64,000 bases of DNA. Origin: Actinomyces viscosus (GTDB lineage Bacteria > Actinomycetota > Actinomycetes > Actinomycetales > Actinomycetaceae). The first letter of the stretch is position 1, and each line of letters opens with the position of its first letter. The stretch is taken from positions 2,046,001-2,110,000 of the forward strand of contig NZ_LR134477.1 in NCBI RefSeq assembly GCF_900637975.1, read 5' to 3'. Shown here piece after piece: positions 1,187 to 22,755 of this stretch. The notes beneath the pieces are model-generated. The model worked only from the letters and a program-made list of their open reading frames with translations. It made no database searches and was not told where the DNA came from. Made by a program: the position numbers and the translations under genes.

Positions 1187-4100
1187 GTGACAACGGCGCC
1201 CCCTACTCCCCCGGATACGGCAACAGATCCTGCCCCTTCCCTTGATGTCGCGCCGGGTTCCGTGGTCCGGGTGCGCGATGAGGACTGGCTCGTCACCCAG
1301 GTTTCTATGACGTCCGACGGCACGCTGGTGACCGTCCAGGGCCTGTCCGAGCTGGTCCGGGACACCACCGCGCAGTTCTCCGCCGGCATCGACCGCATCA
1401 TCCCGGTGGACCCCCGCCACACCCGCGTCATCGCAGACACCTCCACCCGCCACCGGCTCTCCCGACTGTGGCTGGAGGCGACGCTGCGCAAGACAGCGCT
1501 GCCGGCAACCTCCACGGACCTGGCCGTGGTGGGCGACGTCCTGGCGGACCCGCTGACCTACCAGCTGACGGCAGTGCGCCAGGCCCTGGACCCGGCGAAC
1601 CTGCGCCCGCGCATCCTCCTGGCTGACACCGTGGGCCTGGGCAAGACCCTGGAGATCGGCATGATTCTGGCCGAGCTCGTGCGCCGCGGCCGGGGCGACC
1701 GCATCCTCATCGTCACGCCCCGTCACGTGCTCGAGCAGATGCAGCACGAGATGTGGTCGCGCTTCGCCCTGCCCTTCGTGCGCCTGGACTCGGTGGGCAT
1801 CCAGCGGGTGCGCCGTTCGGTGCCGGCCTCACGCAACCCGTTCTCGGTGTTCCACCGCGCAATCATCTCCATCGACACGTTGAAGTCGGACCGCTATCTC
1901 AATCATCTGCGCAAGCAGCGCTGGGATGCGGTCGTCATCGACGAGTCGCACAACGTCACCAACAAGGGCACGCTCAACAACCGGCTCGCGGACATTCTGG
2001 CCCGTCAGACCGACGCCCTCATCCTGGCCTCAGCCACGCCCCACAACGGCAACCCGAAGTCCTTCGCCGAGCTCATCCGTCTGCTGGAGCCGACGGCGGT
2101 GCGAGCGAACGGAGAGCCTGACGAGGAGGCGGTGCGTCGCCTCGTCATCCGCCGTCACCGTCACTCCGACGAGGTACGCGACGTCGTGGGCGGACGCTGG
2201 AAGGAGCGCCTGACTCCGGTCAACAAGCTGGTGCAGCCCTCCCCTGCCGAGGACGCGGTGGCCGACGAGCTCTCACGCACCTGGCTGCACCGCTCCGACG
2301 GCGCCGCGTTGCCGGGCAGCGGGCGGTCGGGCTCACGCGGCGACGCCCTGTTCGCCTGGACGCTGGCCAAGTCCTTCCTGTCGTCTCCGGCGGCGCTCAT
2401 CCAGACGATCGACGAACGCCTGGCCCGACGCCGCCGGGCGACCGAGGCCGGCTCCCAGCCCTCGGAGCAGTCGCAGGCCCTGTCCCGCCTGCGCGAGCTG
2501 GCCATCGAGGCCAACACGACGTCGTCGGGCAAGTACCAGGCGCTGCTGGCCGAGCTGCGCCGGATCGGCATCTCGCGCTCCTCGACCAAGCGCGTCGTCG
2601 TCTTCGCCGAGCGCATCGCGACGCTCACCTGGCTGGCCGAGCACCTGCGAGAGGACCTGAACCTGCCGCCGGAGGCGGTGCGCGTCATGCACGGGAGCCT
2701 GTCGGACGTAGAGCAGCAGGAGATCGTGGAGCAGTTCCGCCAGTCGCACACGCCGGTGCGCGTCCTGGTGACCGGCGACGTGGCCTCGGAGGGCGTCAAC
2801 CTGCACGCCCAGTGCCATGAGCTCATCCACTACGACATCCCCTGGTCGCTCATCCGGATCGAGCAGCGCAACGGCCGCATCGACCGCTACGGCCAGAGCG
2901 TCTCGCCGCAGATCACGACCCTGCTGCTGGACCCGTCGGACCCGCGCTTCTCCGGCGACGTGCGGGTGCTCACGCGCCTGATGGAGAAGGAGGATCAGGC
3001 GCACCGGGCCCTGGGCGACGCCGCCTCCCTCATGGGCCTGTACTCGGGCGAGAAGGAGGAGGCGGCGATCCGTGAGGCGCTTGAGGCCGGCACGGATATT
3101 GACGAGGTCGTCCCCGACGCCGACGACGCCCTCGCCCTGGACCCCATGGCGGCACTGTTCGCGACCCTCACGGGCACGGCCGAGGCCAGGGCCGACGACG
3201 CCGCTGAGCCCACTGGTCCCGGTGGCTCGCCTGATCCGGCCGATCCGGCTCCCGCCGGTCCTGGCGGCTCCACCGGTCCCGGCAGCTTGCCCGAACTGGC
3301 CGACGCCTCCGGCTCCGCTGCCCCCGCAGGCCCGGCCGGCCCCGTCCAACCCGCGGCCCCACTGCCGACCTCGATCCTGTACGAGACGCAGCTGGACTAT
3401 CTGCGCCAGGCCCTGACCGAGCTCTATGAGCGCCCCGAGGAGGCCGAGCAGCGCCAGACCGGCGGCGGTGGCGTCTCCTGGCGCGAGCACGGCACGCAGC
3501 ACGTGGTGGAGATGGTGCCCCCGGCGGGTCTGCGTCACCGGCTGTCGGTCCTGCCGCAGTCCTACCTGCGTGAGCGCCGCGTCCAGGAGCACCTGCTGCT
3601 GGCGACGACGCAGAAGAAGGGCGCGCGTCTGCTCACTGAGGCGCTGCGCGACTCCTCGGACTCCTCATGGCCGGAGGCCCACTACCTGGGGCCGCTGCAC
3701 CCGGTGCTGGACTGGGCCGGCGACCGGGTCCTGGCCAAGCTCGGTCGCTCCTCGGTGTTCGCGGTGCGCGGCGAGGTGGACTCGCCGACCGTTCTGCTGC
3801 TGGGGACGCTGACGAATCAGGCGGGTCGGACGGTGTCGATGGTGTGCGTCAGAATCGCCTTCCCCGTTCTGGACGCGGCCAGGGCGCGGGCGGACCTGGC
3901 TGCGGGCCGGCCACTCGGGGCAGTACCGATCGGGCAGGTGCACCCCTCCCCCGCGGCCATGTTCGCGGAGGCCGGCATCTCCCGCGAACTGAGGAACTCC
4001 GGCCCGGTGCGGGACACCGGCCTGCTGGAGGCGCTTATCGCCCCGGCGGTGAAGACGGCCAAGCGCCAGATGGCGCTGACGGTGGAGGCGGCGAGGCGGC

Positions 4101-4312
4101 AGGCCCGCGAGCGCGTGGACGCCTGGGCGGAGCACGCCAACGCCTGGGATGACGAGGCGGGTCTCCTGGTCCAGAACCGGCACCTGCGCGCCCAGCGCTT
4201 CACAGTGGCCCAGGAGCGCGAGCTCATGAACCAGCACCTGCCGGCGCACACGCTGGTGCGCCCGCTGCTGGTTGTGGTGCCTCAGGACTTCGGGATGGAA
4301 GGAGAGCTCTAA
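1187..4312 (+). CDS. SNF2-family helicase, DrmD-like
   Basis: About 1041 residues with both SF2 helicase halves. Motif I is ADTVGLGKTLEI near residue 146, the DExH box is VIDESHNV near 250, motif III is SATPHNG, and the C-terminal lobe contains SEGVNLHAQ followed by IEQRNGRIDRYGQ near residues 530-570. A Pro/Gly/Ala-rich linker (about 670-725) separates a C-terminal domain. SNF2 translocases of this size paired with a large adenine methyltransferase define class 1 DISARM (DrmD plus DrmMI), which restricts incoming phage DNA. The assignment rests on architecture and neighbour. The frame is open upstream to 614, but that part is intergenic repeat. The GTG at 1187 is the first plausible start and has no clear Shine-Dalgarno, so the true start may be later. 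The stop overlaps the next start as TAATG, which implies translational coupling. Confidence 0.85.
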   Translation: MTTAPPTPPDTATDPAPSLDVAPGSVVRVRDEDWLVTQVSMTSDGTLVTVQGLSELVRDTTAQFSAGIDRIIPVDPRHTRVIADTSTRHRLSRLWLEATLRKTALPATSTDLAVVGDVLADPLTYQLTAVRQALDPANLRPRILLADTVGLGKTLEIGMILAELVRRGRGDRILIVTPRHVLEQMQHEMWSRFALPFVRLDSVGIQRVRRSVPASRNPFSVFHRAIISIDTLKSDRYLNHLRKQRWDAVVIDESHNVTNKGTLNNRLADILARQTDALILASATPHNGNPKSFAELIRLLEPTAVRANGEPDEEAVRRLVIRRHRHSDEVRDVVGGRWKERLTPVNKLVQPSPAEDAVADELSRTWLHRSDGAALPGSGRSGSRGDALFAWTLAKSFLSSPAALIQTIDERLARRRRATEAGSQPSEQSQALSRLRELAIEANTTSSGKYQALLAELRRIGISRSSTKRVVVFAERIATLTWLAEHLREDLNLPPEAVRVMHGSLSDVEQQEIVEQFRQSHTPVRVLVTGDVASEGVNLHAQCHELIHYDIPWSLIRIEQRNGRIDRYGQSVSPQITTLLLDPSDPRFSGDVRVLTRLMEKEDQAHRALGDAASLMGLYSGEKEEAAIREALEAGTDIDEVVPDADDALALDPMAALFATLTGTAEARADDAAEPTGPGGSPDPADPAPAGPGGSTGPGSLPELADASGSAAPAGPAGPVQPAAPLPTSILYETQLDYLRQALTELYERPEEAEQRQTGGGGVSWREHGTQHVVEMVPPAGLRHRLSVLPQSYLRERRVQEHLLLATTQKKGARLLTEALRDSSDSSWPEAHYLGPLHPVLDWAGDRVLAKLGRSSVFAVRGEVDSPTVLLLGTLTNQAGRTVSMVCVRIAFPVLDAARARADLAAGRPLGAVPIGQVHPSPAAMFAEAGISRELRNSGPVRDTGLLEALIAPAVKTAKRQMALTVEAARRQARERVDAWAEHANAWDDEAGLLVQNRHLRAQRFTVAQERELMNQHLPAHTLVRPLLVVVPQDFGMEGEL

Positions 4313-7300
4313 TGGCGGTGTCGGACGCGCTGGTCGTGGGTGAGGACTGGATCAGCGAGCACTACTTCACCACGGACGCCACCAAGGAGTCCTTCCTGGC
4401 GCGGGTGCTGGAGCGCCGCAAGGAGTGGGAGGCCCTGGAGAAGCCGGCCGCCCCGGGCGCGGAGCCGACGCCGCGTTCCCGGTTCCGCTCGGAGCGCTCC
4501 CGGCTGGCCGAGCTGCTGGCGGCCCTGCCCGCGGAGGGCTCCGAGTCCCTGACGGGCGCCGCCCTGGAGGCGGCTGGGGAGCTCGATGCACTCCTGCGCG
4601 AGATCCTGGGCTTCGCCTCGGCGGAGTACCGCCTGACCGAGCGGGGCCCGGTGACCCTGGTGCGGCCGGTGGGCGATGAGGGCCCGGCGCCGCTGGCGCT
4701 GCTGCGCGCCCGACCGGTGACGACGGTGGAGGACCTGCTCGTCAAGGACGCCCCCACCCTCGCCGAGGAGTGGGAGCCGGTGGACCTGGCCGATCCCGCC
4801 GCCCCGGTGTTGGAGGGGGCGGAGCCGGTCGAGTCGATCTCGCGGGCGCTGTCGACGCTCATGACTGATGAGCACGGTCCGGCCTTCGCCCTGGTGCTGG
4901 CGGGCCAGTGGGCGCTGGTGGCGGAGCGGGAGCGCTGGCCGGAGGGCCGCTGGCTGGCGGTCAACGTCCAGCTCGTCGTCGAACGCAACGAGACGAGGCG
5001 CGGCGGCGAGGTGGAGCGGGCCCTGACCTGCCTGGACGCCCGCTCCCTGGTGCCGACGGCGGAGGGCGAGACCTGGTGGGCGGCCACCCTGGAGGACTCG
5101 GCGGCCCACACGGTGGGAGTCTCGAAGGACCTGCGCGAGGGCGTGCGCTCCTCGATCGAGATCATCGCGAACGAGGTGGTGCGCCGTCGCGCCGCGCGGG
5201 GGCTGGAGCCGTTGCCCCAGGAGCGGGCGCAGGACCTGGCCCTGCAGTCGCTGCGCTACATCTACCGGATCATCTTCCTGCTCTACGCGGAGGCGAGCCC
5301 CGAGCTGGGGGTCCTGCCGGTGGGTGCCGCCGAGTATGACGCCGGCTACGGCCTGGATCGTCTGCGTGAGCTGGCCTTGAGGGAGTTGCATGAGGAGTCG
5401 GCCCAGGCGGGCACGCACATCTATGAGTCCTTGGACCGGCTGTTCCGCCTGGTCGATGAGGGGCGCAACGCGGAGGTGTCCGCCCAGGAGGAGGGCGGTT
5501 TCGACGGCCTGGTCTTCCGGCCGATGCGCGCCGACCTCTTCCGCCCGGTGGCGACCGCCCTCATTGACGAGGTGGGCCTGGGTAACGGGGCGTTGCTGCG
5601 GGTGCTGCGCCACCTGCTGCTGACCAGTGAGAACGGCAAGAGCGGGCGCGGCTTCATCTCCTATGTGGAGCTGGGCATCAACCAACTGGGTGCCGTCTAC
5701 GAGGGGCTCATGAGCTACTCGGGCTCCTTCGCCGCCGAGCCCCTGTGGGAGGTGGCGCCGGGTGGGGATGCCTCGAAGGGCTCGTGGGTGGTGCCCGAGG
5801 ACGTCATGAAGGGCCTGGAGGAGAAGGACTTCGTGACGGTGGAGGATGAGGCGACCGGCGAGCCCCGCAACGTCACTTATGAGAAGGGCCAGTTCGTTTA
5901 CCGGCTCTCGGGCCGGGACCGGCAGCGTTCGGCCTCTTTCTACACCCCGGAGGTGCTGACCCGTTTCACGGTGCAGCAGGCGCTGGCCGAGCTGCTGGAT
6001 CAGGATGGGCGGACGACGAGCGCGGAGGAGATCCTGCATCTGACGGTGTGCGAGCCGGCGCTGGGGTCGGGGGCCTTCGCGATCGAGGCGGTGCGCCAGC
6101 TGGCGGAGCAGTACCTGTCCCGTCGGGAGAGGGAGCTGGGTCGGCGGGTGGACCCGGAGGAGCGGCCGCGGGAGCTGGCGAGGGTCAAGGCGTACCTGGC
6201 CCTGCACCAGGTCTACGGGGTGGACCTCAATGCGACGGCGGTCGAGCTCGCCGAGGTGTCGCTGTGGCTGGACACGATGGTGGAGGGGCTGGCGGCCCCG
6301 TGGTTCGGGCTGCGGCTGCGCCGCGGCAACTCGCTCGTGGGGGCCAGGCGGGCGCTGTACGCGGTCTCGGACCTGAAGAAGCGGGCGTGGCTGACGGCGA
6401 CGCCGGTGGCCGAGCCGCTGAGCCAGGTGGCGGCCGTGCTCGACGACGACGCCCGGGCCTCCCGGCACCGTCTGGGCGGGGCGCTCGACGTCTCGGGCAG
6501 CATCCATCATTTCCTGCTGCCGGCCAAGGGCTGGGGCAGTGCGGTGGAGGTGCCCAAGCAGGTGCGCGACCTGGTGGAGGCCGAGCGGCTGAGGAAGTTG
6601 AAGGCCTGGCGCCGGGAGGTGACGAAGGCGCCGACGGCGGTCCAGACGAAGCGGCTGGCGGCCCTGGCCCGGCGCGTGGAGGTGCTGTGGGAGCTGACGC
6701 TGCGTCGTCTGCGGGTGGCGGAGGCGGAGGCCTCCCGGCGCATCGACCTGTGGGGGCGCAAGGCAGAGCCGGCCGCCGGTTCGACGGTGTCCCGCGAGGA
6801 GATCGAGGCCTACCTGGCGGCGCCGGGCTCGGCGTACCGGCGGCTGCGGCTGGTGATGGATGCGTGGTGCGCGCTGTGGTTCTGGCCGCTGACCACTCAC
6901 GTGGCGCCGCCGAGCCTGGATGAGTGGTTGGGCGCCCTGGAGGCGCTTCTGGGTAAGCAGGTGAAGGACGCCAAGGGCACCGACGGGACCCTGGTCGAGG
7001 GCTCCTCCTGGACTGAGCTGGACAGCATGGAGGAGGTGGAGCTCGGTCTTGCCGGCGCCCGCCGGGTGGAGTCGGTGATCGCCGAGCACGAGTGGCTGGA
7101 GGTTGTGCGGGAGGTGGCCGAGGCTCAGGGCTTCTTCCACTGGGAGCTGGACTTCGCCACCGTCTTCGCCCGCGGCGGCTTCGACCTCCAGGTGGGGAAC
7201 CCGCCGTGGGTGAGGCCCGACGTCGCAGTCGAGACGCTTCTCGCCGATGGCGACCCATGGTGGATGCTGGCGAAGAAACCGTCAGTGGCCGCAAGGAACG

Positions 7301-9027
7301 AGAGGATGCCACGCACTCTCGCACGCCCTGGTGTGCTCAACACGGTGCTGGACGGAGCTGCCGAGACGGAGGTTCTCGCCGAGTTCGTCAGCGATCAGAC
7401 CGTCTACCCCCTCATGGAAGGCCGGCCGGATCTCTACCGGGCCTTCATGTGCCAGGTGTGGGCACATCAAAGCGGTAACGGCATCGCCTCGCTCATCCAC
7501 ATGGAGACCCATTTCACCGACGCCAAGACGCCGGACCTGCGGGCTGCCGCCTACCGACACCTGCGCCGTCACTGGCAGTTCATTAACGAGCTCCAGCTTT
7601 TCGACATTCAGCATCAGAAGATCTACGGAATCCACGTTTACAGCACTGAACGGCCGCCTTCGTTCCTTCATGCCACCTCCCTCTATCATCCCGAGACGGT
7701 GCTGCGTTCCCTCATGCACGATGGCAGCGGGGAGGAACCTGGATTCAAGGACCCTCATACCGCAACTTGGGACCTGAGACCGCATGCAGCGCGGATTCAA
7801 CAGGTTGACGAGACAGTTCTTCGAACATGGCAGGCCGTAACTGAAGCAGACGACTGGCGTTCTACTCCGATGGTGTCCACCGTGAACTCGGCAGCCGCTC
7901 GCACGCTGGAGACACTGGCCCGCCAGCCTCGCATTGGAGGCCTCGCCCTAGAGTTCTCGTCCGGCTGGAACGAGACAACCGACTTCAACAACGGCCGCTT
8001 CGTCAAGGACTGGGGCCCATCATCCTGGGAGGACGCCATCCTTCAAGGGCCTCACCTTTACGTCTCAACACCACTGTACAAGCAGCCCAACGAGACTATG
8101 CGGAACTTTCTGGATTGGACCGCCACCGACTTCGAGGCTCTTCCTGCGGGCGCCCGGCCGGTCACCCAGTACAAGCCCGCGGGTGATCGCGACGCCTACG
8201 ACCGCCTCTACACCCACTGGGGCGGCTCCTCCGCCCGCGACCACTACCGCATCGCCTGGCGTAATATGGCTCCACTCACCGGAGAACGAACTCTGGCAGC
8301 AGTCTTAATACCACGAGGAGCCGCACACGTCCACACGGTCTCATCGGCAACGACGCTCAAGTCGCGGAAGCCTATCGTTGCGGTTCAAACCGTGGCATCA
8401 TCACTGCTCGCCGACTTCATGATTCGTTCATCTGGCCGCGGCCATGTCCACGCGAGCGATCTCGAACGTCTTTTCACGCTGCCGCCGGTACACCCACTGG
8501 CGTCACGAGTGCTGCTCCGCACCCTGCGCCTCAACTGTGTGACTGAGGCATACGCGGACCTCTGGGCTGAGTGTTGGAATGATAAGTTCCTCAACGATGC
8601 ACCGATTTTGGAACGCCATGATGAGCGTCCGATTGGCCCGGAGTGGACGGTGGACACACCATTGCGCCGGGCCGAGGATCGTCGGAACGCTCAGGCGGAG
8701 ATTGACGTCATGGTGGCGATGATGCTGGGTGTTCCGATCGATGATCTGTGCACGATCTACCGCACTCAGTTCGCGGTGCTGTACGACTATGACCATGGCC
8801 GGGGTCAGGGTGCTTATGTCTATGACGCGAATGGCCGCCAGGTGCCGACTCCGGTCCGCCAGGCCTGGGAGAAGCGCCCCACCTCCAACGAGGATATGCC
8901 ACTCTCGGAGCGGACTCACACCCACCCCGGTTCCGGCGTTTCCTACGAGTACATCCTCCCCTTCCGCATCCGCGACCGCGAGTCCGACTTCCGCCGCATC
9001 CACACCGCCCTCACATCACGCAGTTAA
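4312..9027 (+). CDS. Large class I N6-adenine DNA methyltransferase, DrmMI/Eco57I-like
   Basis: A 1571-residue protein. The SAM-binding segment begins with FYTPEVLTRF near residue 543 and contains CEPALGSGAF near 580-589. The catalytic NPPW motif (VGNPPWVRP) is near 960-968, so motif order is that of gamma-type N6-adenine methyltransferases. The long N-terminal region of about 540 residues and the variable C-terminal region resemble DISARM DrmMI, BREX PglX and Eco57I-like enzymes. No PD-(D/E)XK nuclease motif was evident by eye. The start ATG overlaps the helicase stop and has GGAAGGAGAG just upstream. After the NPPW motif (from about 7270) codon use becomes visibly less GC-biased, as if the target-recognition part was acquired separately. 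The expected role is host DNA modification so that the helicase partners spare self DNA. Confidence 0.87.
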   Translation: MAVSDALVVGEDWISEHYFTTDATKESFLARVLERRKEWEALEKPAAPGAEPTPRSRFRSERSRLAELLAALPAEGSESLTGAALEAAGELDALLREILGFASAEYRLTERGPVTLVRPVGDEGPAPLALLRARPVTTVEDLLVKDAPTLAEEWEPVDLADPAAPVLEGAEPVESISRALSTLMTDEHGPAFALVLAGQWALVAERERWPEGRWLAVNVQLVVERNETRRGGEVERALTCLDARSLVPTAEGETWWAATLEDSAAHTVGVSKDLREGVRSSIEIIANEVVRRRAARGLEPLPQERAQDLALQSLRYIYRIIFLLYAEASPELGVLPVGAAEYDAGYGLDRLRELALRELHEESAQAGTHIYESLDRLFRLVDEGRNAEVSAQEEGGFDGLVFRPMRADLFRPVATALIDEVGLGNGALLRVLRHLLLTSENGKSGRGFISYVELGINQLGAVYEGLMSYSGSFAAEPLWEVAPGGDASKGSWVVPEDVMKGLEEKDFVTVEDEATGEPRNVTYEKGQFVYRLSGRDRQRSASFYTPEVLTRFTVQQALAELLDQDGRTTSAEEILHLTVCEPALGSGAFAIEAVRQLAEQYLSRRERELGRRVDPEERPRELARVKAYLALHQVYGVDLNATAVELAEVSLWLDTMVEGLAAPWFGLRLRRGNSLVGARRALYAVSDLKKRAWLTATPVAEPLSQVAAVLDDDARASRHRLGGALDVSGSIHHFLLPAKGWGSAVEVPKQVRDLVEAERLRKLKAWRREVTKAPTAVQTKRLAALARRVEVLWELTLRRLRVAEAEASRRIDLWGRKAEPAAGSTVSREEIEAYLAAPGSAYRRLRLVMDAWCALWFWPLTTHVAPPSLDEWLGALEALLGKQVKDAKGTDGTLVEGSSWTELDSMEEVELGLAGARRVESVIAEHEWLEVVREVAEAQGFFHWELDFATVFARGGFDLQVGNPPWVRPDVAVETLLADGDPWWMLAKKPSVAARNERMPRTLARPGVLNTVLDGAAETEVLAEFVSDQTVYPLMEGRPDLYRAFMCQVWAHQSGNGIASLIHMETHFTDAKTPDLRAAAYRHLRRHWQFINELQLFDIQHQKIYGIHVYSTERPPSFLHATSLYHPETVLRSLMHDGSGEEPGFKDPHTATWDLRPHAARIQQVDETVLRTWQAVTEADDWRSTPMVSTVNSAAARTLETLARQPRIGGLALEFSSGWNETTDFNNGRFVKDWGPSSWEDAILQGPHLYVSTPLYKQPNETMRNFLDWTATDFEALPAGARPVTQYKPAGDRDAYDRLYTHWGGSSARDHYRIAWRNMAPLTGERTLAAVLIPRGAAHVHTVSSATTLKSRKPIVAVQTVASSLLADFMIRSSGRGHVHASDLERLFTLPPVHPLASRVLLRTLRLNCVTEAYADLWAECWNDKFLNDAPILERHDERPIGPEWTVDTPLRRAEDRRNAQAEIDVMVAMMLGVPIDDLCTIYRTQFAVLYDYDHGRGQGAYVYDANGRQVPTPVRQAWEKRPTSNEDMPLSERTHTHPGSGVSYEYILPFRIRDRESDFRRIHTALTSRS

Positions 9028-10059
9028 CTCAAATTTAAGTAGTCATCATGAGCAAGAATTCCCATAACACCGACAACGGCACCTTCGGACTTGACATTGT
9101 CTCAGCTACAAATCTTTTGAAGTCAGAACAATATGGAGCTTGGTATCGAGATCCTTGGAATTTCCCCGAACTCGACGCAAACTTCACCAAAACCCTCGAC
9201 GCATCGACGCTTGGGATCGGAAAAACATCTAGTGGCATTAATTTCACCAGTCCACCATCTTTCCTCCCCTTCGACTTCCCTAAGAGTTTCTTTGCAACAC
9301 GACCAGCTGTCACACAAGACCTTCAATCATCCCTAGCTTTCGCTGCAGCGGCATTACAAGTCGCTCCCAGTCTTCATGAATCCCTCGAAGATTGGGTCTA
9401 CGGCTGGCGTATGCGTAATGGAAAATTCGCGGGACAATCGTCGAACGAGTGGACTCAATATACCGGCACAAAGAAAGACATTTTACAATCAGAATACTCA
9501 GCCCAAACCGATATTACCTCATGTTTTGCCTCTATCGACCACAAAGAAGTTTCAGACTTCGTATATAAAACCGTGGGAAAAACGACCGCTGCCAACATTA
9601 TCAACAGCGTTCTAGAGCAGCATGCCACAACCCCGGGGCGTCGAGGGTTGCCGCAACGCAGTAACGCAGCCTCTATTCTCGCTCAACTCGCATTCTATTA
9701 TATCGATCTACGCATTTCCGAAAGGCTATTTACAGGGCGAATTACTAGCGCTCGACGATGGATGGATGACATTAGCTTCGAAGGTAGTTACGAAGAACTT
9801 CACGACCTTTTAACGGTAATTCAAAACGACGCCCGTCGGTTCGGTCTCGAAATCAATACTTCAAAAACAAGCATCATCACATCCACTCAGCTTGTACAAG
9901 AAATCGAAGAAGAAGAGAATAAACTTATTGAAGTGGAGCCGGTCATTGTCGATGCAGGATATGACGAGCCTCCACTCATATTTTACGACGATTCGTTTCT
10001 AGTCGACCTCGAATCGGAGATACTTGCCAACCCATCGAGATTCAGTCGCCCTACAATTG

Positions 10060-13451: not shown

Positions 13452-13667
13452 GGCACCCAGTATGGGCGAAGGGCGCAAATATGTACGCCTTGTCATCAAG
13501 AAGCGACTCGGGCTCCGCCTCTCCCGTCCCCTCACTGGGGTAGCCTCTGCCCTGCGGGATTCTCCTCCCGGAACAACAGCGATCCGCGCAAAGCCGCGCC
13601 GCCCCGGCAGGCTCGGCTCCCGCGCCTCATCCGCACCCCACCGCCCCATCACCAGCACACTCCACCA

Positions 13668-16600
13668 ATGACGCTCCTCCTCCCTAGCCTTCAGGCAGAA
13701 CGCATCCGGCGCTCCATCGTCGACTACCTGTCGACGACCTTCGCGCTCACGGACGCCGAGCCCAGGCGGGTGCTCGCCGACTTCCTGGAGGACGAGAAGC
13801 AGGGCGTCTTCGTCGGCCCCTTCGTGCGCCTGCGCCTGCCCTACCTGGCCGCGAGCGCGCCCGCCGCCGGCCCCGGTGCGACCTCCCCCGCCAACCAGAC
13901 CACCCCGGCCGACAGCCCCCTCAACTGGGACCCGGGCCTGGCCCCCTACCAGCACCAGGAGGACGCCTACCGGCGCCTGACCACCAAGGCCGGCCACCGC
14001 CCCGAGCCGACCATCGTCACCACCGGCACCGGCTCGGGCAAGACCGAGTCCTTCCTCCACCCCGTCCTCGACCACGTCCTGCGCGCCCGCGCCCAGGGGA
14101 TCACCGGCATCAAGGCCCTCATCCTCTACCCGATGAACGCCCTGGCCACCGACCAGGCCGGCCGCCTCGCCCGCCTCATCACCAACGACCCCGCCCTGGC
14201 GGCAGTGCGCGCCGCCCTCTACACGGGCGACTCCTCAGCCCAGCCGCGCAAGCACGTCACCGCCGACTCCCTCATCACCGACCGCTACGTCATCCGCGAC
14301 GACCCGCCGGACATCCTGCTCACCAACTACAAGATGCTCGACCAGCTCCTCCTGCGCCCCGAGGACCGTGAGCTGTGGCGGGCCTCGGCGGCCTCCCTCA
14401 CCTACCTCGTCCTCGATGAGTTCCACACCTACGACAGCGCCCAGGGCACCGACGTCGCCATGCTGCTGCGGCGCCTGGGCCTGACCCTGCGCGCCCACCT
14501 GCCCGCCGACGACCCCCGCCAGGAGGCCTTCGCCGCCTCCCCACTGGGGCCCGTGTGCCCCGTGGCCACCTCCGCCACCCTCGGCGACGGCGCAGATCCC
14601 TCCCGGATGCTCGCCTTCGCCCGTGACGTCTTCGGGCCGGACCTGCCCGCCGACGCCGTCGTCACCGAGACCCGCGCCGACCTCGACCAGTGGGCCGACG
14701 CCCACCGCCGCGCAGCCACCGCCAAGGGCCTGACCGGCCTCGCCCGAAGCTTGAGGTCCCTGCCCGGTGAGAACCTGCAGGCCCTGGCCCGGCTCGCCCA
14801 GGCCGCCTCCCCCGCCCCGGAGGAGCTGCTGCGCGGTGTCGTCGCCCACCTCTACGACCTGCCCGAGGACCTTGAGGACACCCTCGACGCCGCCGCCCTG
14901 GCCTCCGCGCTCCAGGCCCACCCGGACGTCCTGGACCTCGTGCGCGCCGCCGAGCGCTCCACGCGGCTGTCCGAACTCGCCCACGCCCTGCTGGGCCCCG
15001 CCCACGAGCCGGACCTGGCCCGCCGGGTCCTCTCGGCGATCCTGGCGGCCCTGTCGGTGGTGCGCGCCGGGCTGGACGGCCGCCCCGACCGGCGCGCGGT
15101 CAACGTGGAGGTCACCCTGTGGATCCGGGAGGTCACCCGCGTCGACCGGGCCCTGAGCTCCCTGCCCGCCTTCCGCTGGAGTGACGCGATCGCCGAGCAG
15201 CACCAGGTCGACGAGCCGGCGCGCCCGGCCCTGTACTGCCGCTCCTGCGGGCGCTCCGGCTGGGGAATCGTCCTGGCCCCCACCGGGCAGCAGGAGAAGG
15301 AGGACCAGTCCCACGTGCGCCGCGACCGGAAGATCGGCGACCCCCGCTTCCGGGCCCTGCTGCACGCCCCCGGCGAGGACGCCGACTACCGCGCCCGCCT
15401 GGAGGCCGGGGAGCCGGCCCCGCAGGCCCACCACCCCGGGCTGCGCTGGTACTCCGTCAACAGCCGCGAGCTCCTCACCCGCCGCCCGGCCGACGACGAC
15501 CCGGAGGCCAAGGAGGGCCTCATCCTGCCGGTCCTCACCCTGACCGGCGACGAGCGCAGCATCGCCGAGGACTCCACCCGCGACGTGTGCCCCTCCTGCG
15601 GGGACAAGGACTCGATCCGCTTCCTCGGCTCGGCCGTCGCCACGCTCCTGTCGGTGTCACTGACCACCCTGTTCGGCGACGACGCCCTGGACGACGCCGA
15701 CAAGCGCGCCCTCATCTTCACCGACTCCGTGCAGGACGCCGCCCACCGCGCCGGCTTCGTCAACCAGCGCTCCCACACCATGAGCCTGCGCTCGGCCTTG
15801 CGGGGGGCGCTCACCGCCGAGATGCCCATCGAGGAGTGGGCCGAGGCCGCCCTCGACGACGCCCAGGCCAGCGCCTTCGACCGCTACCGGCTCGTCCCGG
15901 CGGACCTGACCGAGCACAAGCGCTTCAAGCCCTACTGGGACCCGCAAGCCCCGGTCTCCGGGCGCAGCCGGGCCAAGCCCCACGTGCGCCGTCGGCTCCT
16001 GTTCGACATCGCCCTGGAGGTGGGCCTCCAGTCGACCTACGGGCGCACCCTGGAGGCCACCGGCTCGGTGAGCGTCCACGTCCGGGCCGGCGAGGCCGCC
16101 GCCCTCATCGACCTGGCCCGCCAGGCCCTCGGCGGTGGCCGGCAGGGCGCCCTCGACGGGTTCGAGGACCTCACCGACGCGCGCCTGCTCACCTGGGTGC
16201 GCGGCACCCTGGAGCACATGCGCCGCGACGGCGCCATCGACCACGAGTGGCTGGCGCGCTACAAGCGCGACGACGGCAAGCGCCTGTGGATCTGGTACAA
16301 GCGCAACCGCGACCAGGGCCAGCCCGCCTTCCCCACCGGGCGCGCCGCCCCCGCTTTCCCCCAGGTGGGTGGCGGCCTGGACACCCGCAAGTCGGCCTTC
16401 GTGCCGGCGGGCTCATCCAGGTCCTGGTACGCCACCTGGACCCGCAAGTGCCTGGACGTGGTGCCCACTCACGCCGCCCGCCTGGCCTGCGCCCTCCTGG
16501 CCCACCTGGCCGAAGCCGAGATCCTCACCGCCACCAGCACCGACAGCGGCGGCACCGTCTACGGGCTGCCGGCCGGACGCGTCGTCATCTCCCCGCTGGG

Positions 16601-19600
16601 CGAGACCGCCGGTGAGGCCCTGCTCCTGGTGTGCGGCACCTGCCGCACCCAGCTGCCCGCAGCCGCGGCCACCGTCGGCCAGCTCGACGGCGCCCCCTGC
16701 CCGGCCGCCGCGTGCCCCGGCCACCTGGAGGCCGGCCCCCACCCGGCGGAGAGCTTCTACCGGAGCATGTACGCCGGGGCCCACGTGCGCCGGGTCGACT
16801 CCCACGAGCACACCTCCCTGCTCGACGCCAACGAGCGCGCCAAGGTCGAGACCGGCTTCAAGCGCCCCGATCAGCTGCCGGGCGACCCCAACGTCCTCGT
16901 GGCCACCCCCACCCTGGAGATGGGTATCGACATCGGGGACCTGTCCACCGTTATGCTCGGCTCCCTGCCGGCGACGGTCGCCTCCTACGTGCAGCGGGTG
17001 GGCCGCGCGGGGCGCCGCAGCGGCTCGGCGCTCGCCCTGGCCTACGTGCCCGGCCGGCGCAACCAGCTCCCGGTGCTCGACGAGCCCACACGCCTCCTCA
17101 ACGGTTCGGTGGCGCCGCCGTCGACCTACCTGGGGGCCGAGGAGATCCTGCGCCGCCAGTTCCTCGCCTCCGTCATCGACACCCTCACCCGCGAGAACCA
17201 CCCGGCCGTCCCCTCCGGCGGCCACAGCCGCGCCACTGCCGAGACCGCTCTGGGCGCCACCGGGGACGGCTCCCTCATCGCCACCATGAGCGAGCGGATC
17301 GAGCGCGACGGCCCCCTGCTTGCACAGGCCTTCACCGCCGCCTTCACGACGCGCACGCCGGCGCTCGACCGGCTGACCGCCTGGGTGGTTCAGGACGGTG
17401 GCGCCGGACCCCGCCAGATGCTTGAGCAGGCCGCCGCCGAGCACCGCGCCGAGTCCGAGCGACTGCACCGCCAGGAGCGCCAGATCCGCGAGGCCCTGCC
17501 CGAGCTGACGGTGGTCGCCGACCGCCCCAACGCCACCGAGGAGGACGCCCGGGCCCTACGCGCCGCCGAGGGCGCCCAGAAGGCGGCCCAGACCCGGATC
17601 TTCGAGCTGAAGCAGGAGCACTGGGTCTCGGCCCTGGAGCGCCACGGCATCCTGCCCAACTACACCCTCATCGACGACTCGGTGCGCCTGTCCGCCCGCG
17701 TCTCCTGGCGCGACCCGGAGACCGACGAGTTCCGTACTGAGCCCTGCGACGTCGAGCGCGCCTCCGTCCACGCCCTCAAGGAGTTCGCCCCCGGCGCCAC
17801 CTTCTACACCCGCGGCCTGGAGATGGGCATCGAGGGCATCGACGCCTCTGACCTGCAGGACCAGGCGCAGTGGTGGCTGACCTGCGAGGCCTGCGGGTAC
17901 GTTGACGTCCACGGCCCCCAGGAGCACGCGCCGGCCGCGCCCCCTCAGTGCCCGAGGTGCGGTGACACCGCCATCGCCGACGTCGGGCGGGCCCGGCGGG
18001 TCATGCGCCTGACCCGGGTCTTCGCCGACGTCTCCAGGGACGACGCCCGGATCGGGGACTCCAGCGACGAACGGATCCGTACCCACTTCGAGGTCCTGCC
18101 CCTGGCCGACATCGACCCCACGCGCGCGGTGCGCCAGTGGAGCGTGGAGGCCTCCGGGTTCGGGCTGGCCCGCTACCGCGCCATGAGCCTGCGCTGGCTC
18201 AACACCGGGCGGGCCCTGGCCGGCCAGAGCGTCGACCGGGTCGCGGGCATCGCCGTGGCCTCGCGGGACTTCCGCCTGTGCGAGGCCTGCGGCAAGCTCG
18301 ACACGAGCACCGGCACCTCCTCCGCCCGCGAGCACCGGCCCTGGTGCCGGCACCGCAGCGACCCGGTGGAGCACGCCATCGGCGTCGACCTCATGCGTGA
18401 GCTGAGCACCGAGGCCCTCGCCTTCGTGCTGCCCCTGGGCTTCGCCACCGACCGGGTGGGGGTGGAGTCCCTGGCCTCCGCGATCCTCCTGGGCCTGGAG
18501 ATCACCACCGGTGGGTCCCCCGACCACCTGGGGATCGTCGGCGTCCCCCACCCCGTCGCGGGCGGTGCCCCCGGCGAGACCCGCCCCGCCCTCCTCCTGC
18601 ACGACACCGTCCCCGGAGGCACCGGTTACCTCACCGACCACGACGACCCCGCCCGGCTCTGGCGGCTGCTCGTGCGCACCGGGCAGCGCCTGGCGACCTG
18701 CCCGTGCCGGGCCGAGGGCAAGGACATGTGCCCCGACTGCCTCCAGCCCCACGCCGTCTCCGGCGACGTCACTCGCGCCGCCGCCTTCCACGCCATCGGC
18801 CAGCTCCTGGGGCTTGAGACCGCTGACACCGAGGGCCAGTTCGCCGGCCTCGACCCGGACATACCCCAGTGGACGGTCACCGACGAGGCCGTGCGCGCCG
18901 GCACCGGGGAGAGCCCCCTGGAGGTACGCTTCCGGGCCGCCCTCGCCGAGCTGATGAGCAAGGAGATGGCCGTGCGCACCATCTCCGACCCCTCGGGCGC
19001 ACCCGCCCTGGAGATCGACGGGGGCCGCTGGAGGATCCGCCCCCAGCTCGACGCGAGCGGCACCCGCCCCGACTTCACCTGCCTGCGCCCCGGGGGCCGC
19101 AGCCCCATCGCCATCTTCACCGACGGGCGCAGCTACCACGCCAGCCGCACGCACAACCGCCTGGCCGACGACGCCGACAAGCGCGCCCGGCTGCGCGCCG
19201 CCGGGTACCGGGTCGTCTCCGTCGGCGTCGAGGACCTGGACGGACCATGGGACCCGGCCTGGCTCGATGACAACGCCGTCGCCCGGCTCATGAACGGCTC
19301 CCTGGGGCCCGCCCGCGCAGGCAGCGTCACCGAGCAGGCCGTCGCCGCCTGGCGCGGCGGGCCGATGGCCCTGCTGGAGGCGATGCTCCTGGACGACTCG
19401 GGCTGCCCCGACACCGGCCCCGACCCCAGCCCGGAGGCGAGAGCCATGAGCGCCCTGGCCGACTCCGTCTGGGGGCCGCTCGTTGTCGGCGCCGCCCAGC
19501 GCCTGCCCCTGAGCGAGAACGCCTCCCTGCACTACTCCCCCACCCAGGAGGCTGGCGCGGACCCGCTGTGGGAGGCGCTGCGCGCCCTGCGGCCCGAGGA

Positions 19601-20273
19601 CGACCTGCCCGAACCCGGTGGCGCCACACCCGACGGCACCGAGCCCAGCGGCGCGGCCCCGGCGTCCGGAGGCGGCACCACCGGGGCCAGGACCTCAGGC
19701 TCGGTGTTCGCCATCCCCCACCTCGCCCTGGCGGTCCGGCTCACCGGGACCTCCACCACGGGGATGGCCCTCGTGCTCGACGACTCCGAGGAGGCCCTGG
19801 CCTCCCCCGACCACGCCGAGGCCTGGCTGACCTGGCTGCGGCTGAGTAACGTCCTCGCCCTGGCCCAGAGCCCCGTGGACATCACCACCACCAGCCGGGC
19901 CCTGGCCGAGCTGCGGGCCCGCGCCGACACCCGGACCACCGTCACCGACGTCGCGGGCAGCCCCGCCACCATGCACGATCTCGGCTGGGACGACGTCGAC
20001 CGGGACCTCACCCCCGCCGCCATCCTCACGCTCCTGCCCCACCTGGCGGCCGCAGGCGTCCCCCACGAGGGCGACGGCGTCGAGCTGGCCGGCGGCATCA
20101 TGACGGACCTGTCCTGGGCCGCGCCCAAGGTCGCCGTCCTGGCCGAGCCGCAGGAGGGCGACGTCGAAGCCCTGACGGCAGACGGTTGGAGAGTCGTCGT
20201 CACCGGGGACGATCCGGCCCGCACCACCGCCGACATCTGCGCGCTCATCCCCGAGCTCCTGGAAGGACACTGA
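13668..20273 (+). CDS. Giant DUF1998 helicase (DruE-like size and layout)
   Basis: 2201 residues from the ATG at 13668, which precedes the first conserved block (SLQAERIRRSIVDYL); the frame is open further left without coding signal. SF2 motifs: TTGTGSGKTES near residue 118, DEFHTYD near 250, then a long insertion with zinc-type cysteine pairs (CRSCG near 525, CPSCG near 640, CGTC near 985). The C-terminal lobe has ATPTLEMGIDIGDL and QRVGRAGRRSG near 1075-1115. Further cysteine pairs follow near 1405 and 1540. A DUF1998-type block, CPCRAEGKDMCPDCLQPH, lies near 1680. Residues about 1735-1870 look like a Vsr/DUF559-like nuclease fold (RPDF, then IFTDGRSYH, then a D-K-R-L-G-Y pattern), with the usual Glu replaced. 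DUF1998 giants occur in Druantia (DruE); DISARM splits similar parts between DrmA and DrmB. It is followed one base later by the UvrD gene. Confidence 0.85.
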   Translation: MTLLLPSLQAERIRRSIVDYLSTTFALTDAEPRRVLADFLEDEKQGVFVGPFVRLRLPYLAASAPAAGPGATSPANQTTPADSPLNWDPGLAPYQHQEDAYRRLTTKAGHRPEPTIVTTGTGSGKTESFLHPVLDHVLRARAQGITGIKALILYPMNALATDQAGRLARLITNDPALAAVRAALYTGDSSAQPRKHVTADSLITDRYVIRDDPPDILLTNYKMLDQLLLRPEDRELWRASAASLTYLVLDEFHTYDSAQGTDVAMLLRRLGLTLRAHLPADDPRQEAFAASPLGPVCPVATSATLGDGADPSRMLAFARDVFGPDLPADAVVTETRADLDQWADAHRRAATAKGLTGLARSLRSLPGENLQALARLAQAASPAPEELLRGVVAHLYDLPEDLEDTLDAAALASALQAHPDVLDLVRAAERSTRLSELAHALLGPAHEPDLARRVLSAILAALSVVRAGLDGRPDRRAVNVEVTLWIREVTRVDRALSSLPAFRWSDAIAEQHQVDEPARPALYCRSCGRSGWGIVLAPTGQQEKEDQSHVRRDRKIGDPRFRALLHAPGEDADYRARLEAGEPAPQAHHPGLRWYSVNSRELLTRRPADDDPEAKEGLILPVLTLTGDERSIAEDSTRDVCPSCGDKDSIRFLGSAVATLLSVSLTTLFGDDALDDADKRALIFTDSVQDAAHRAGFVNQRSHTMSLRSALRGALTAEMPIEEWAEAALDDAQASAFDRYRLVPADLTEHKRFKPYWDPQAPVSGRSRAKPHVRRRLLFDIALEVGLQSTYGRTLEATGSVSVHVRAGEAAALIDLARQALGGGRQGALDGFEDLTDARLLTWVRGTLEHMRRDGAIDHEWLARYKRDDGKRLWIWYKRNRDQGQPAFPTGRAAPAFPQVGGGLDTRKSAFVPAGSSRSWYATWTRKCLDVVPTHAARLACALLAHLAEAEILTATSTDSGGTVYGLPAGRVVISPLGETAGEALLLVCGTCRTQLPAAAATVGQLDGAPCPAAACPGHLEAGPHPAESFYRSMYAGAHVRRVDSHEHTSLLDANERAKVETGFKRPDQLPGDPNVLVATPTLEMGIDIGDLSTVMLGSLPATVASYVQRVGRAGRRSGSALALAYVPGRRNQLPVLDEPTRLLNGSVAPPSTYLGAEEILRRQFLASVIDTLTRENHPAVPSGGHSRATAETALGATGDGSLIATMSERIERDGPLLAQAFTAAFTTRTPALDRLTAWVVQDGGAGPRQMLEQAAAEHRAESERLHRQERQIREALPELTVVADRPNATEEDARALRAAEGAQKAAQTRIFELKQEHWVSALERHGILPNYTLIDDSVRLSARVSWRDPETDEFRTEPCDVERASVHALKEFAPGATFYTRGLEMGIEGIDASDLQDQAQWWLTCEACGYVDVHGPQEHAPAAPPQCPRCGDTAIADVGRARRVMRLTRVFADVSRDDARIGDSSDERIRTHFEVLPLADIDPTRAVRQWSVEASGFGLARYRAMSLRWLNTGRALAGQSVDRVAGIAVASRDFRLCEACGKLDTSTGTSSAREHRPWCRHRSDPVEHAIGVDLMRELSTEALAFVLPLGFATDRVGVESLASAILLGLEITTGGSPDHLGIVGVPHPVAGGAPGETRPALLLHDTVPGGTGYLTDHDDPARLWRLLVRTGQRLATCPCRAEGKDMCPDCLQPHAVSGDVTRAAAFHAIGQLLGLETADTEGQFAGLDPDIPQWTVTDEAVRAGTGESPLEVRFRAALAELMSKEMAVRTISDPSGAPALEIDGGRWRIRPQLDASGTRPDFTCLRPGGRSPIAIFTDGRSYHASRTHNRLADDADKRARLRAAGYRVVSVGVEDLDGPWDPAWLDDNAVARLMNGSLGPARAGSVTEQAVAAWRGGPMALLEAMLLDDSGCPDTGPDPSPEARAMSALADSVWGPLVVGAAQRLPLSENASLHYSPTQEAGADPLWEALRALRPEDDLPEPGGATPDGTEPSGAAPASGGGTTGARTSGSVFAIPHLALAVRLTGTSTTGMALVLDDSEEALASPDHAEAWLTWLRLSNVLALAQSPVDITTTSRALAELRARADTRTTVTDVAGSPATMHDLGWDDVDRDLTPAAILTLLPHLAAAGVPHEGDGVELAGGIMTDLSWAAPKVAVLAEPQEGDVEALTADGWRVVVTGDDPARTTADICALIPELLEGH

Positions 20274-20274: not shown

Positions 20275-22755
20275 ATGCCCGCGATCCTGTGGCCCAGCAG
20301 CAAGACCAAGGACGCCACCACCAAGGACCCGTCCCTCAGGGCCAAGATCGGGCCGTTCATCACCAAGCTCGCCACCATGACCACGAGCTCGGGTCTGCAC
20401 CTGGAGCACATTCGCGGGGCGCAGGACCGGCGTGTGCGCACCGCGCGCGTCACCGACTCCTACCGGGCCGTCCTGTTCGAGCTGAGCGCCGAGGCCGGGC
20501 CCGTCTACGTCATCCACGGCATCTGGCAGCACGATGAGGCCAACAAGATCGCCGAGTCCGTCACCGTCGGCATCAACCCCTACAACGGGACCACCGAGGT
20601 CACCCACATCAGGGACCTCATCGCCCAGGACGCCGACGCTGTCGAGCAGGCCAGACGCGCCGCCCAGGCCGAGCTCGCCGCCGCCCAGCGCGAGACCGAC
20701 GAGATCGCCCGCGAGACCGCCCGGATCCAGGCGGCCAACGCCGAGGCCCGCCGCCGCAACGAGGAGGCGGCCAAGGCCCCGGCTGCCGGGCCTGCTGCCG
20801 CCCCGGACGCAGGACCTGCCTCGAAGACTGCGGCGGGCCACCGCGGTGAGGACCCCCGCAGTAGGGGCGGGGCTGTTCCTGTGGCCGGCGCCGTCGTCGT
20901 CCCCGGGCGCGACCAGGCACCGAGATGGCCCGAGGGCCTGAGCGTGGAGGTGCTGCGCGACGAGCTCGGTATCGATGTTCGGCTGGGCGCCGCGGCGCTC
21001 GCGGCCACCCGCGAGTCCCAGGTCCTCGACCTGGCCGCCACCGCCCGGGTCGCCTGGCAGGGTGAGGCCCTGCTCAACCTGGCCACCGGCTCGACGATCG
21101 CCGACGTCCGTGAGGACTTCGGGCTGCTGCCCGCCGACGAGGTGGCCTGCGACCCCACCGACGCCGACCTCATCGCCGGCCTGCGCACCCGTGCGGCGCG
21201 CACCACCTTCACCTGGCTGGAGAGCGACGAGGACCTGCGCCGCGCCATCGAGGGGCTCACCTTCGCCGAGTGGCAGCTCTTCCTGCACCCTCAGCAGCGC
21301 GCCCTCGTGGAGCGGCACGCACGTGGCCCCATGCGCATCTCAGGCGGCGCCGGAACCGGCAAGACGGTCGTGGCGGTGCACCGCGCCGTCGAGCTCACCG
21401 AGCGGGATGAGGCCGCGGGGCAGGAGCCTCGGATCCTGCTGACGACCTACACGCGCAACCTCGCCGACGACCTGCGCCGTCAGCTGGCCCAGCTCGCCCC
21501 GGAGCTCGCCTTCACCGAGAAGCTCGGCGAGCCCGGTGTCCTCGTCAGCGGCCTGGACCGGGTCGCGCGCATGATCCTCCAGCGCGCCGGGGACGCCATC
21601 GCCCAGACGGCGCAGCAGGTCATCGGCCAGCCTCGCCGGCAGGTGCTCACCTACCCCCGGGCCGATGTGTGGCAGGAGGTCCTCACCCTCATGGGCGACG
21701 AGCTGCCCGAGGGGCTGCGGTCCGCCGACTTCCTGGAGTCCGAGTACGAGATGATCGTGCTGCCCCAGCGAGTCACCACTCTCCAGCAGTACCTGCGCGT
21801 GCGGCGGCCCGGGCGGGGCGTGGCCCTCGACCGCTCCAAGCGCGCTGCCGTATGGAAGGCTGTTGAACGCTACCGGGACCGCAGCGCAGACCTGGGCGTC
21901 ACCTCTTTCTCCGAGCAGCTCGCCCTGGCTGCCGCCTGGCTGGACCAGCAGGCGGAGCGAGGGGTGCCCCGGCCCTTCCGGCACGTGCTCGTCGACGAGG
22001 CCCAGGACCTGACGCCCGCCCACCTCCAGCTGCTGCGGGCCCTGGTGGAGGCCGGGCCGGATGACCTGTTCCTGGCCGAGGACTCCCACCAGCGGATCTA
22101 CGGCAAGAAGATCACGCTGAGCCACTACGGGATCCAGGTGCGTGGGCGCTCGCGGCGGCTGACCCGCAACTACCGGACCACGCGCCAGAACCTCGACGCG
22201 GCCTTCGGGATCCTCGACCCCGGCGCCTACGAGGACATGGAAGGCCAGGCCGAGGAGCACCGTTACGTCTCGCCGCGCTCGGGGCCCGAGCCCCTGCTCC
22301 TCCATGCCGCCGACCGCGCCGAAGAGCTCAGCAAGGCCGCCGAGCTGCTGAGCCGGTGGCTGGAGCAGGACCGGGACAGTGGGGAGAGCGCTCCGGAGAC
22401 CATCGCCGTCCTCGTACGCGACCGCTACCAGCGCGACGCCGTTGTCAATGGCCTGGCGCAGCACGGGGTGGAGGTGCGCGCCGTGGATCGTGAGGCGGCC
22501 GGCCGTGGCCGACCGGTGGTGATGACGATGCACCGGGCCAAGGGGTTGGAGTTCCGCAAGGTCCTGCTCTTCGACGTCTCACGCAGCGCGATCCCCCGGT
22601 CGCTGCGGGACCAGGAGTACTCCGAGGCCGATGGCGCGGACGCCCTGCTGCGGGAGCGCTCGCTGCTGTACGTGGCCGCGACCCGTGCCAGGGACCAGCT
22701 CGCCATCTCCTGGGCCGGTGAGGCCAGCCCCCTCATCACCGCCCTCACGCAGTAG
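20275..22755 (+). CDS. UvrD/Rep-type helicase with N-terminal RelE-like domain
   Basis: 826 residues, starting one base after the stop of the DUF1998 gene with GGAAGGA upstream, so the two are co-translated. Residues 1 to about 105 resemble a RelE/ParE fold: LRAKIGPFITKL, RVRTARVTDSYRAVLFEL and HGIWQHDEANKIA. A coiled, Ala/Arg-rich segment and a linker follow. The SF1A helicase occupies about 340-826: GGAGTGKTVVAVHR, VLVDEAQDLTP, TRNYRTTRQN, TMHRAKGLEFRKVLLFD and LYVAATRARDQLAISW. Family members translocate 3'-5' on DNA. No RecB-like nuclease domain is apparent. The RelE-like part may be an RNase-type effector or a nucleic-acid-binding module; catalytic residues cannot be assigned from sequence alone. 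Confidence 0.87.
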   Translation: MPAILWPSSKTKDATTKDPSLRAKIGPFITKLATMTTSSGLHLEHIRGAQDRRVRTARVTDSYRAVLFELSAEAGPVYVIHGIWQHDEANKIAESVTVGINPYNGTTEVTHIRDLIAQDADAVEQARRAAQAELAAAQRETDEIARETARIQAANAEARRRNEEAAKAPAAGPAAAPDAGPASKTAAGHRGEDPRSRGGAVPVAGAVVVPGRDQAPRWPEGLSVEVLRDELGIDVRLGAAALAATRESQVLDLAATARVAWQGEALLNLATGSTIADVREDFGLLPADEVACDPTDADLIAGLRTRAARTTFTWLESDEDLRRAIEGLTFAEWQLFLHPQQRALVERHARGPMRISGGAGTGKTVVAVHRAVELTERDEAAGQEPRILLTTYTRNLADDLRRQLAQLAPELAFTEKLGEPGVLVSGLDRVARMILQRAGDAIAQTAQQVIGQPRRQVLTYPRADVWQEVLTLMGDELPEGLRSADFLESEYEMIVLPQRVTTLQQYLRVRRPGRGVALDRSKRAAVWKAVERYRDRSADLGVTSFSEQLALAAAWLDQQAERGVPRPFRHVLVDEAQDLTPAHLQLLRALVEAGPDDLFLAEDSHQRIYGKKITLSHYGIQVRGRSRRLTRNYRTTRQNLDAAFGILDPGAYEDMEGQAEEHRYVSPRSGPEPLLLHAADRAEELSKAAELLSRWLEQDRDSGESAPETIAVLVRDRYQRDAVVNGLAQHGVEVRAVDREAAGRGRPVVMTMHRAKGLEFRKVLLFDVSRSAIPRSLRDQEYSEADGADALLRERSLLYVAATRARDQLAISWAGEASPLITALTQ

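Follow-up and report, generated by a model that had tools for sequence, protein, structure and literature searches.

The window analysed here is a stretch of 64,000 nucleotides corresponding to positions 2046001-2110000 of the 3.49-Mb single-contig genome of Actinomyces viscosus. Between positions 1187 and 22755 it carries a string of genes that an initial annotation had read as an SNF2 helicase, a methyltransferase, a reverse transcriptase (RT), several small genes, a 2201-residue helicase and a UvrD-type helicase, and had proposed as a possible undescribed hybrid or variant of DISARM. Open reading frames (ORFs) and profile searches confirm that this gene string is real. Judged by sequence comparison, the four large genes are armA to armD of ARMADA Type II, a system that is already known (PMC12458937), and the RT and small genes between armB and armC lie in a slot that holds different genes in different genomes. 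We put at about 0.88 the probability that the locus is an ARMADA Type II anti-phage operon whose middle junction became a slot for exchangeable, mostly defence, accessory genes.

The first of the four, armA (1187..4312, plus strand), lies in an ORF that is open already from position 614 and encodes a BrxHII/DrmD-like SNF2 helicase of 1041 amino acids (aa). It matches the PADLOC profiles for DrmD (315 bits) and DrmA (211 bits) and scores 345.8 bits with the NCBIfam DrmD model, for which the cut-off is 610. Its end overlaps (CTAATGG) the start of armB (4312..9027, plus strand), which encodes a PglX/YeeA-like adenine methyltransferase of 1571 aa. The best PADLOC profile for ArmB is REase_MTase_IIG PDLC03611 (full length, 1408 bits), with further matches to DrmMI (PADLOC, 189 bits) and Eco57I (Pfam); the protein reaches no BREX cut-off in NCBIfam, and no Pfam family is found in residues 1-529. 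The third gene, armC (13668..20273, plus strand), encodes a YprA/DruE-like helicase of 2201 aa (PADLOC DruE3, 280 bits) which matches the Pfam families DEAD, Helicase_C and MZB (MZB above cut-off) and, weakly and below cut-off, MTES_1575. The cysteines of the DUF1998/MZB region are kept in all four aligned sequences. By motif reading, the same is true of a Vsr-like nuclease pattern at the C-terminus (R-x-D, DG-x-x-[YF]H and D-x-x-KR, at about residues 1750-1855), a region for which AlphaFold gave no usable fold from the single sequence (predicted local distance difference test, pLDDT, 36). One base pair further on, armD (20275..22755, plus strand) encodes an 826-aa protein in which a RelE-like domain (20275 to about 20640) precedes a GajB-like UvrD helicase (Pfam UvrD-helicase and UvrD_C). 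The RelE-like N-terminus, already suspected in the initial annotation, is backed by its predicted fold: the AlphaFold model has a mean pLDDT of 69 and its first 33 PDB matches are toxins of the RelE/YoeB/YafQ/ParE/HigB types, with a best E-value of 1.8e-3 and none at or below 0.001. At the level of sequence, Pfam gave no RelE match in this N-terminus and an alignment profile searched against PDB sequences returned one irrelevant match (E 0.32).

Evidence for the identity of the four genes comes from comparison with a September 2025 preprint (PMC12458937). ARMADA Type II is described there as comprising ArmA, a BrxHII/SNF2 helicase; ArmB, a PglX-like methyltransferase; ArmC, a YprA-like helicase nearest to that of Druantia and equipped with a Vsr-type nuclease; and ArmD, a RelE-like domain fused to a GajB-like UvrD helicase. 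The E. coli system is reported to protect without cell death and to require all four genes together with several helicase and methylase residues, with mutation of ArmD D454 or ArmB G605 causing only partial loss. The window has the same four genes as the system of E. coli NCTC 12900, in the same order and with the same domains, and all eight residues mutated in that study are conserved. ArmA K136 and D236 align with K153 (Walker A) and D252 (Walker B) of the window protein, ArmB G605 and N971 with G585 and N963 (in the NPPW motif), ArmC K110 and D234 with K125 and D250, and ArmD K266 and D454 with K363 and D574. This comparison was made via an E. coli plasmid copy of ARMADA II, not NCTC 12900 itself, although the residue numbers agree; the window proteins are 28.7-32.9% identical to the plasmid copy. 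The window departs from NCTC 12900 in that armB and armC are parted by 4640 bp, so that the operon is not contiguous although its gene order is kept. The preprint states a strict gene order but not contiguity. No new name is called for, since the core system is already described, and the proposal of an undescribed hybrid is overtaken by the prior definition of a system with these four large genes. PADLOC calls this ArmB a type IIG restriction enzyme (PDLC03611), and ARMADA operons may therefore be miscalled as restriction-modification systems.

The initial annotation held that the DISARM-class-1-like genes (drmD/drmMI), the DruE-like giant and the RelE-UvrD fusion belong together, and surveys of other genomes bear this out. 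In the main gap survey armA and armB stand together and in the same order wherever both are seen (52 loci), as do armC and armD (61 loci). The gene armB is on the same stretch as armC in 56 of 61 loci, and in the other five (G149, G045, G029, G099 and L006) the contig ends before the position of armB. The four-gene set recurs across the Actinomycetota, with ArmC down to about 32% identity, and the recurrence of the four genes together indicates that their association is not due to chance. A juxtaposition of two unrelated neighbours was considered and rejected, the SNF2/methyltransferase and giant/UvrD pairs being linked in loci with enough contig. With the A. viscosus genome included, 22 of 151 genomes of the family have the giant (three of them with weak DruE-like matches only), and ArmB was detected in 5 of 296 phylum, 41 of 394 class and 22 of 49 genus genomes. 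The weak DruE-like matches in G014, G082 and G140 and at another place in G045, which are not ARMADA II, were set aside from the family survey; in G029, G045 and G099 the contig with armC has no armB, and in G149 armB is on other contigs. Six genomes were left out of the class survey as contig ends or not chosen (G474, G572, G680, G704, G760 and G772), G841 and G149 were not countable in the genus survey, and in Actinomyces sp. ZJ308 (L006) the stretch starts too near armC. The Streptomyces, Tsukamurella and E. coli plasmid copies stand outside the counts. The closest giant helicases, in seven loci, are all from Actinomyces. Distant DruE-like giants (matches of about 320 aa) were also seen in L058, L059 and L060, with SNF2-like genes within about 7 kb and, in L059, a methyltransferase-like gene within the same distance; these giants may be part of a different YprA-type system, for instance ARMADA Type I.

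The spacing described in the initial annotation is correct (the armA/armB overlap, 20 bp from armB to the RT and 1 bp from armC to armD), and the two tight blocks into which the locus falls would, on the example of contiguous relatives, be one ancestral operon split by the slot. The count of the armB-armC gap covers 65 loci with both genes on one contig (56 from the main survey and nine from the genus survey). The gap is at most 0.4 kb in 38 of them, often with overlaps of 1 or 4 bp, and exceeds 1 kb in the other 27, where 1.4-19.7 kb of extra DNA is present. At the armA-armB (52 loci) and armC-armD (61 loci) junctions nothing above about 0.4 kb remained after unaligned BLAST ends were taken into account. 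Slots are present in 18/18 loci of the close type in Actinomyces, in one of two of the distant type, in the single locus of a sister genus (g29), in 6/8 loci of genus g43 and in 1/7 of family f90; none was found in the seven loci from other Actinomycetaceae genera or in the remaining 22. One of the 18, G816, was counted on the first codons of armC only (69 aligned, possibly a relic) and has a slot of at least 1.4 kb; without it the figure is 17/17. In L011 the gap of 1511 bp runs to an armC relic, the full armC lying about 2.5 kb after armB. Genus g43 is probably Streptomyces, to judge by the Streptomyces-like genes in its slots; a named Streptomyces plasmid has armB and armC contiguous. Two Actinomyces genomes (L194 and L195) carry a distant ARMADA II type, with ArmC about 35% identical and a small gene after armB. 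In the passages of PMC12458937 consulted, neither a slot nor any gene between armB and armC is mentioned, and a literature search by title and abstract start found no paper on it. ARMADA II is thus a known system in which the nested, apparently exchangeable cargo slot appears to be new.

The cargo of these slots is varied. Slot genes were called with a home-made ORF picker, so that small genes may be missed or wrong. Among 19 Actinomycetaceae slots there are 12 kinds of first sizeable cargo, and in 16 of the 19 this first cargo is defence-like, belonging to a known or candidate defence family or carrying a TIR, SLATT or caspase domain. Profile matches identify a UG33 RT in the window, a PDC-S28 helicase in L008, L010 and G838, PDC-S59 in L009 and G816, SLATT in L011, an AriA/OLD-like ATPase in G003, a Ppl-like protein in G058, an NsnA/PD-T4-2-like protein in G831, PD-Lambda-5 A and B in G819 and a caspase-like protein in G835. 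TIR-SLATT cargo is present in G083 (by profile) and, judged by likeness to cargo that was itself tested, in G131. A GajA/GajB-like pair is found in G062 by profile and in G817 by the same kind of likeness; the G062 slot has a Shedu-like SduA_C gene as well. Common to A. oris CCUG 34288 and A. johnsonii is a 1264-aa gene of low guanine-plus-cytosine content, on the minus strand directly behind armB (L007:4130-7924 and L012:4907-8701), of which the L007 copy has no Pfam, PADLOC or NCBIfam match; nor has the 495-aa protein of the G825 slot (L192:16532-18019). In 14 of the 19 slots the first cargo has the orientation of armB and usually starts within about 100 bp of it; in most slots it is therefore probably co-transcribed with armA and armB. 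In genus g43 the slots include NsnA and/or NsnB relatives (G396, G681, G783 and G798) and HEC-01 genes (G553, G681 and G791), with a type IIG enzyme also in G553.

In the window the cargo is an RT of the UG33 type. The initial annotation correctly placed it directly behind the methylase gene, where it starts 20 bp after the armB stop on the same strand; it is broken by an insertion sequence (IS) and lies outside the core system. Its N-terminal piece (9048..10059, plus strand; PADLOC RT_UG33, 400 bits, profile positions 3-311) includes the catalytic MDD at residues 239-241 (WMDDI), and its C-terminal piece (10946..11512, plus strand) matches the same profile at positions 315-489 (165 bits). This division of the profile over two ORFs indicates that the RT is interrupted. 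Between the pieces lies an 875-bp IS element (10060..10934, plus strand) with 16-bp perfect inverted ends, a DDE_Tnp_4 transposase (Pfam, 97 bits) and a target duplication, TTG, at 10057-10059 and 10935-10937. It had escaped the initial annotation that the 625-aa RT ORF (9048-10925) is an in-frame fusion of the truncated RT with this transposase. The genome holds eight full-length copies of the IS, that in the RT included, with the same ends and a rounded identity of 100%, which suggests that the insertion into the RT is probably recent. Another full-length copy is present in the window at 62266-63140 (converted genome coordinates). The window RT fits the profile of the UG33 group (a PADLOC model filed under DRT) nearly over its full length but, unlike an intact member, in two pieces. 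Intact relatives of 528-529 aa and 84-85% identity exist, one of them named Actinomyces oris, and others are known from further actinobacterial genera. The RT was not detected in 48 other Actinomyces and 393 other class genomes (E 1e-30, one genome per species), nor on plasmids (E 1e-15) or viral contigs, and the 151 family genomes held no other carrier except for a weak 59-bit match in G065. A literature search for UG33 returned only unrelated papers, and no Rfam family was found at 8900-13700.

The two sides of the slot behave differently. Slot positions 1-2890, the RT part, have no DNA counterpart in 19 other slots apart from an IS match in G838, whereas positions of about 2892-4641 match 15 of these 19 sequences at 76-94% DNA identity. 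This suggests that the armB side of the slot is replaced while the armC side is mostly kept. The common right-hand part (11919..13667) is made up of small genes on the minus strand and the stretch leading up to armC. The small genes reported in the initial annotation between the RT and the giant are present, on the minus strand at 11935-13469; the toxin-antitoxin-like roles assigned to them are suggested by the following resemblances. An 83-aa helix-turn-helix-like gene (11935..12186, minus strand) has relatives in other slots and a match to HTH_23 (E 0.03) below the Pfam cut-off, and is possibly an antitoxin. The adjoining 77-aa gene (12190..12423, minus strand), with relatives in several slots and no family match, is possibly the toxin. 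A Phd/YefM antitoxin-like gene (13191..13469, minus strand; Pfam PhdYeFM, 43.7 bits) follows, beside which no ParE gene was seen in the window, while L008 has both ParE_toxin and PhdYeFM.

Further evidence on how the cargo may be exchanged came from relics of the 5' end of armC, found in L008, L011 and G816 at a distance of 9-36 bp behind the first cargo and scoring in each case above all 60 shuffles. They lie at L011:10001-10153, in L191 (oriented 6674-6877) and at about 8155-8218 in L008. Their presence suggests that the cargo once stood directly before armC and that later material entered at the armC start. Relics of this kind directly behind the cargo in three loci point to recombination in the conserved flanking genes as a likely route of exchange.

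Several other features were seen in or near ARMADA loci. An NYN-domain gene (39-677) lies just upstream of armA in the window, and a glutamine amidotransferase/phosphoribosyltransferase (purF-like) gene (25344-27236) lies downstream, the latter being a neighbour also in five of the seven searched-contig loci. In A. dentalis, armA-like fragments are found a second time, as a broken set, downstream of armD (L011:22128-22934), and on a Tsukamurella plasmid (L179:711-7416) UvrD, helicase and DUF1998 genes stand directly upstream of an ARMADA II-like set.

The resemblances on which the DISARM reading was built are genuine, and we consider that reading, with the RT as an added component of a hybrid or variant system, extremely unlikely all the same. 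As in class 1 DISARM, a DrmD-like helicase is followed by a DrmMI-like methylase, and the SNF2 gene is indeed nearest to the DrmD profiles and the giant to DruE. The gene set is nevertheless that of ARMADA II, the DrmD score is far below the NCBIfam cut-off and the methylase below every BREX cut-off. Among the best 25 PADLOC families for each protein of the interval there is no drmB and no PLD drmC, and the DrmA models match only the SNF2 gene and the giant. In place of separate drmB and drmC genes the window has the giant with its Vsr-like nuclease and the RelE-UvrD protein, and the RT accompanies the set in no other genome of the family (the weak match in G065 apart), genus or class surveys. 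Membership of DISARM was rejected on these grounds. Druantia was rejected likewise: the window shares with Druantia Type III a DruE-like YprA giant helicase, but its partners are a methylase, an SNF2 and a UvrD protein, with no DruH in the PADLOC lists and no spare large ORF beside armC (genes further upstream were not scanned). The profile check proposed with the initial annotation thus returned the likenesses to DrmD, DrmMI and DruE3 without membership of either system. It is also very improbable that ArmB acts alone as a type IIG restriction-modification enzyme and has nothing to do with the helicases. Its strongest match is the full-length one to REase_MTase_IIG, but that profile was likely itself built from ArmB-type proteins; the first 529 residues belong to no Pfam family, and in every locus where armA and armB are both seen they overlap or adjoin, with armC and armD after them. 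The idea that an intact RT is a true fifth component working with ArmA-D in this lineage fits its position close behind armB and the existence of intact relatives, one of them from A. oris. It is improbable, as other cargoes take the same place, the sequence has no counterpart in the compared slots or in the 48 other genomes of the genus, and relatives occur in other actinobacterial genera. Rejected as a core gene, the RT is instead one among several cargoes that take this place in different genomes.

The alternative that deserves most attention is that the slot is a neutral landing site whose cargoes are passengers of a defence island, their position never having been under selection, and several observations weigh against our preferred interpretation, some of them in its direction. 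Three of the 19 slots hold first cargo without a family match (the 1264-aa gene twice, and G825). In five (L007, L012, G058, G825 and G835) the first cargo is encoded on the other strand, at odds with co-transcription. The slots of g43 also contain, in sequences read by eye, genes seemingly unrelated to defence, among them ordinary-looking helix-turn-helix and ATP-binding genes, and a search with a single protein from the slot of f90 (G711) gave no hit. Some slots show matches to IS-type transposases, and several cargoes look broken. The right-hand part is missing in four of the 19 slots compared (G062, G003, G819 and G816). No armC relic was found in 10 of the 13 loci tested, the window included (14 rows, G062 twice), and the relics in L011 and G816 do not end alike on the right. 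The Actinomyces slots moreover probably stem from one old event followed by turnover, so that 18/18 does not represent 18 independent insertions. The slot may be a tolerated place for insertion without functional coupling. Against neutrality, only one of the three junctions is used, and this in several lineages; the first cargo is defence-like in 16 of 19 slots and runs in the armB direction in 14; and in L008 the stop of the cargo overlaps the relic of the armC start. We regard a neutral site as possible but on the whole unlikely, and retain the interpretation of an ARMADA Type II operon with a slot for exchangeable, mostly defence, accessory genes.

How such a locus would work can be proposed in outline. 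On the model of the E. coli system, ArmB would methylate host DNA as a self mark, and the helicases ArmA, ArmC and ArmD, with the Vsr-like nuclease and the RelE-like domain, would block phage DNA without killing the cell. The helicase-nuclease parts may attack unmarked or damaged phage DNA, although the division of labour among ArmA-D is put forward here tentatively. DruE, the Druantia III relative of ArmC, has been reported to load preferentially on 3' single-stranded DNA and to act in a helicase-nuclease role (PMC13192584). In most slots the shared right-hand stretch, with its toxin-antitoxin-like genes, parts the cargo from armC, and the simplest route for exchange of the cargo between strains would be recombination through the flanking arm genes. 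The slot cargo may add a second layer of defence, as has been proposed for the auxiliary nucleases embedded in BREX loci (PMC12839542), and the UG33-type RT of the window was probably such a second-layer effector, recently inactivated by the IS. The report on BREX-related loci describes auxiliary or back-up OLD-ABC, GmrSD, Shedu and PIN-type modules inside or beside the core operon, and several of the same cargo types are found in the ARMADA slots. The core differs between the two, and in ARMADA the extras stand at one junction, behind the methylase gene.

A bolder proposal, which we hold to be doubtful, is that actinomycete ARMADA II is a docking chassis, with a dedicated slot fed by recombination. 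The alternative second-layer effectors in it would be expressed from one transcript with the methylase and would be triggered once the core is blocked or overrun. If true, a lineage could swap its last-ditch effector (an RT, GajAB, TIR-SLATT, PD-Lambda-5, a caspase or others) without changing the restriction core. The slot offers a fixed address at which defence genes may be found by position, and with recognised or candidate defence genes first in 16 of 19 slots the 1264-aa and 495-aa proteins are good candidates for new ones. The armC 5' relics point to a way of exchanging cassettes that can be tested, and the idea of an embedded back-up effector, reported for BREX, would be extended to ARMADA.

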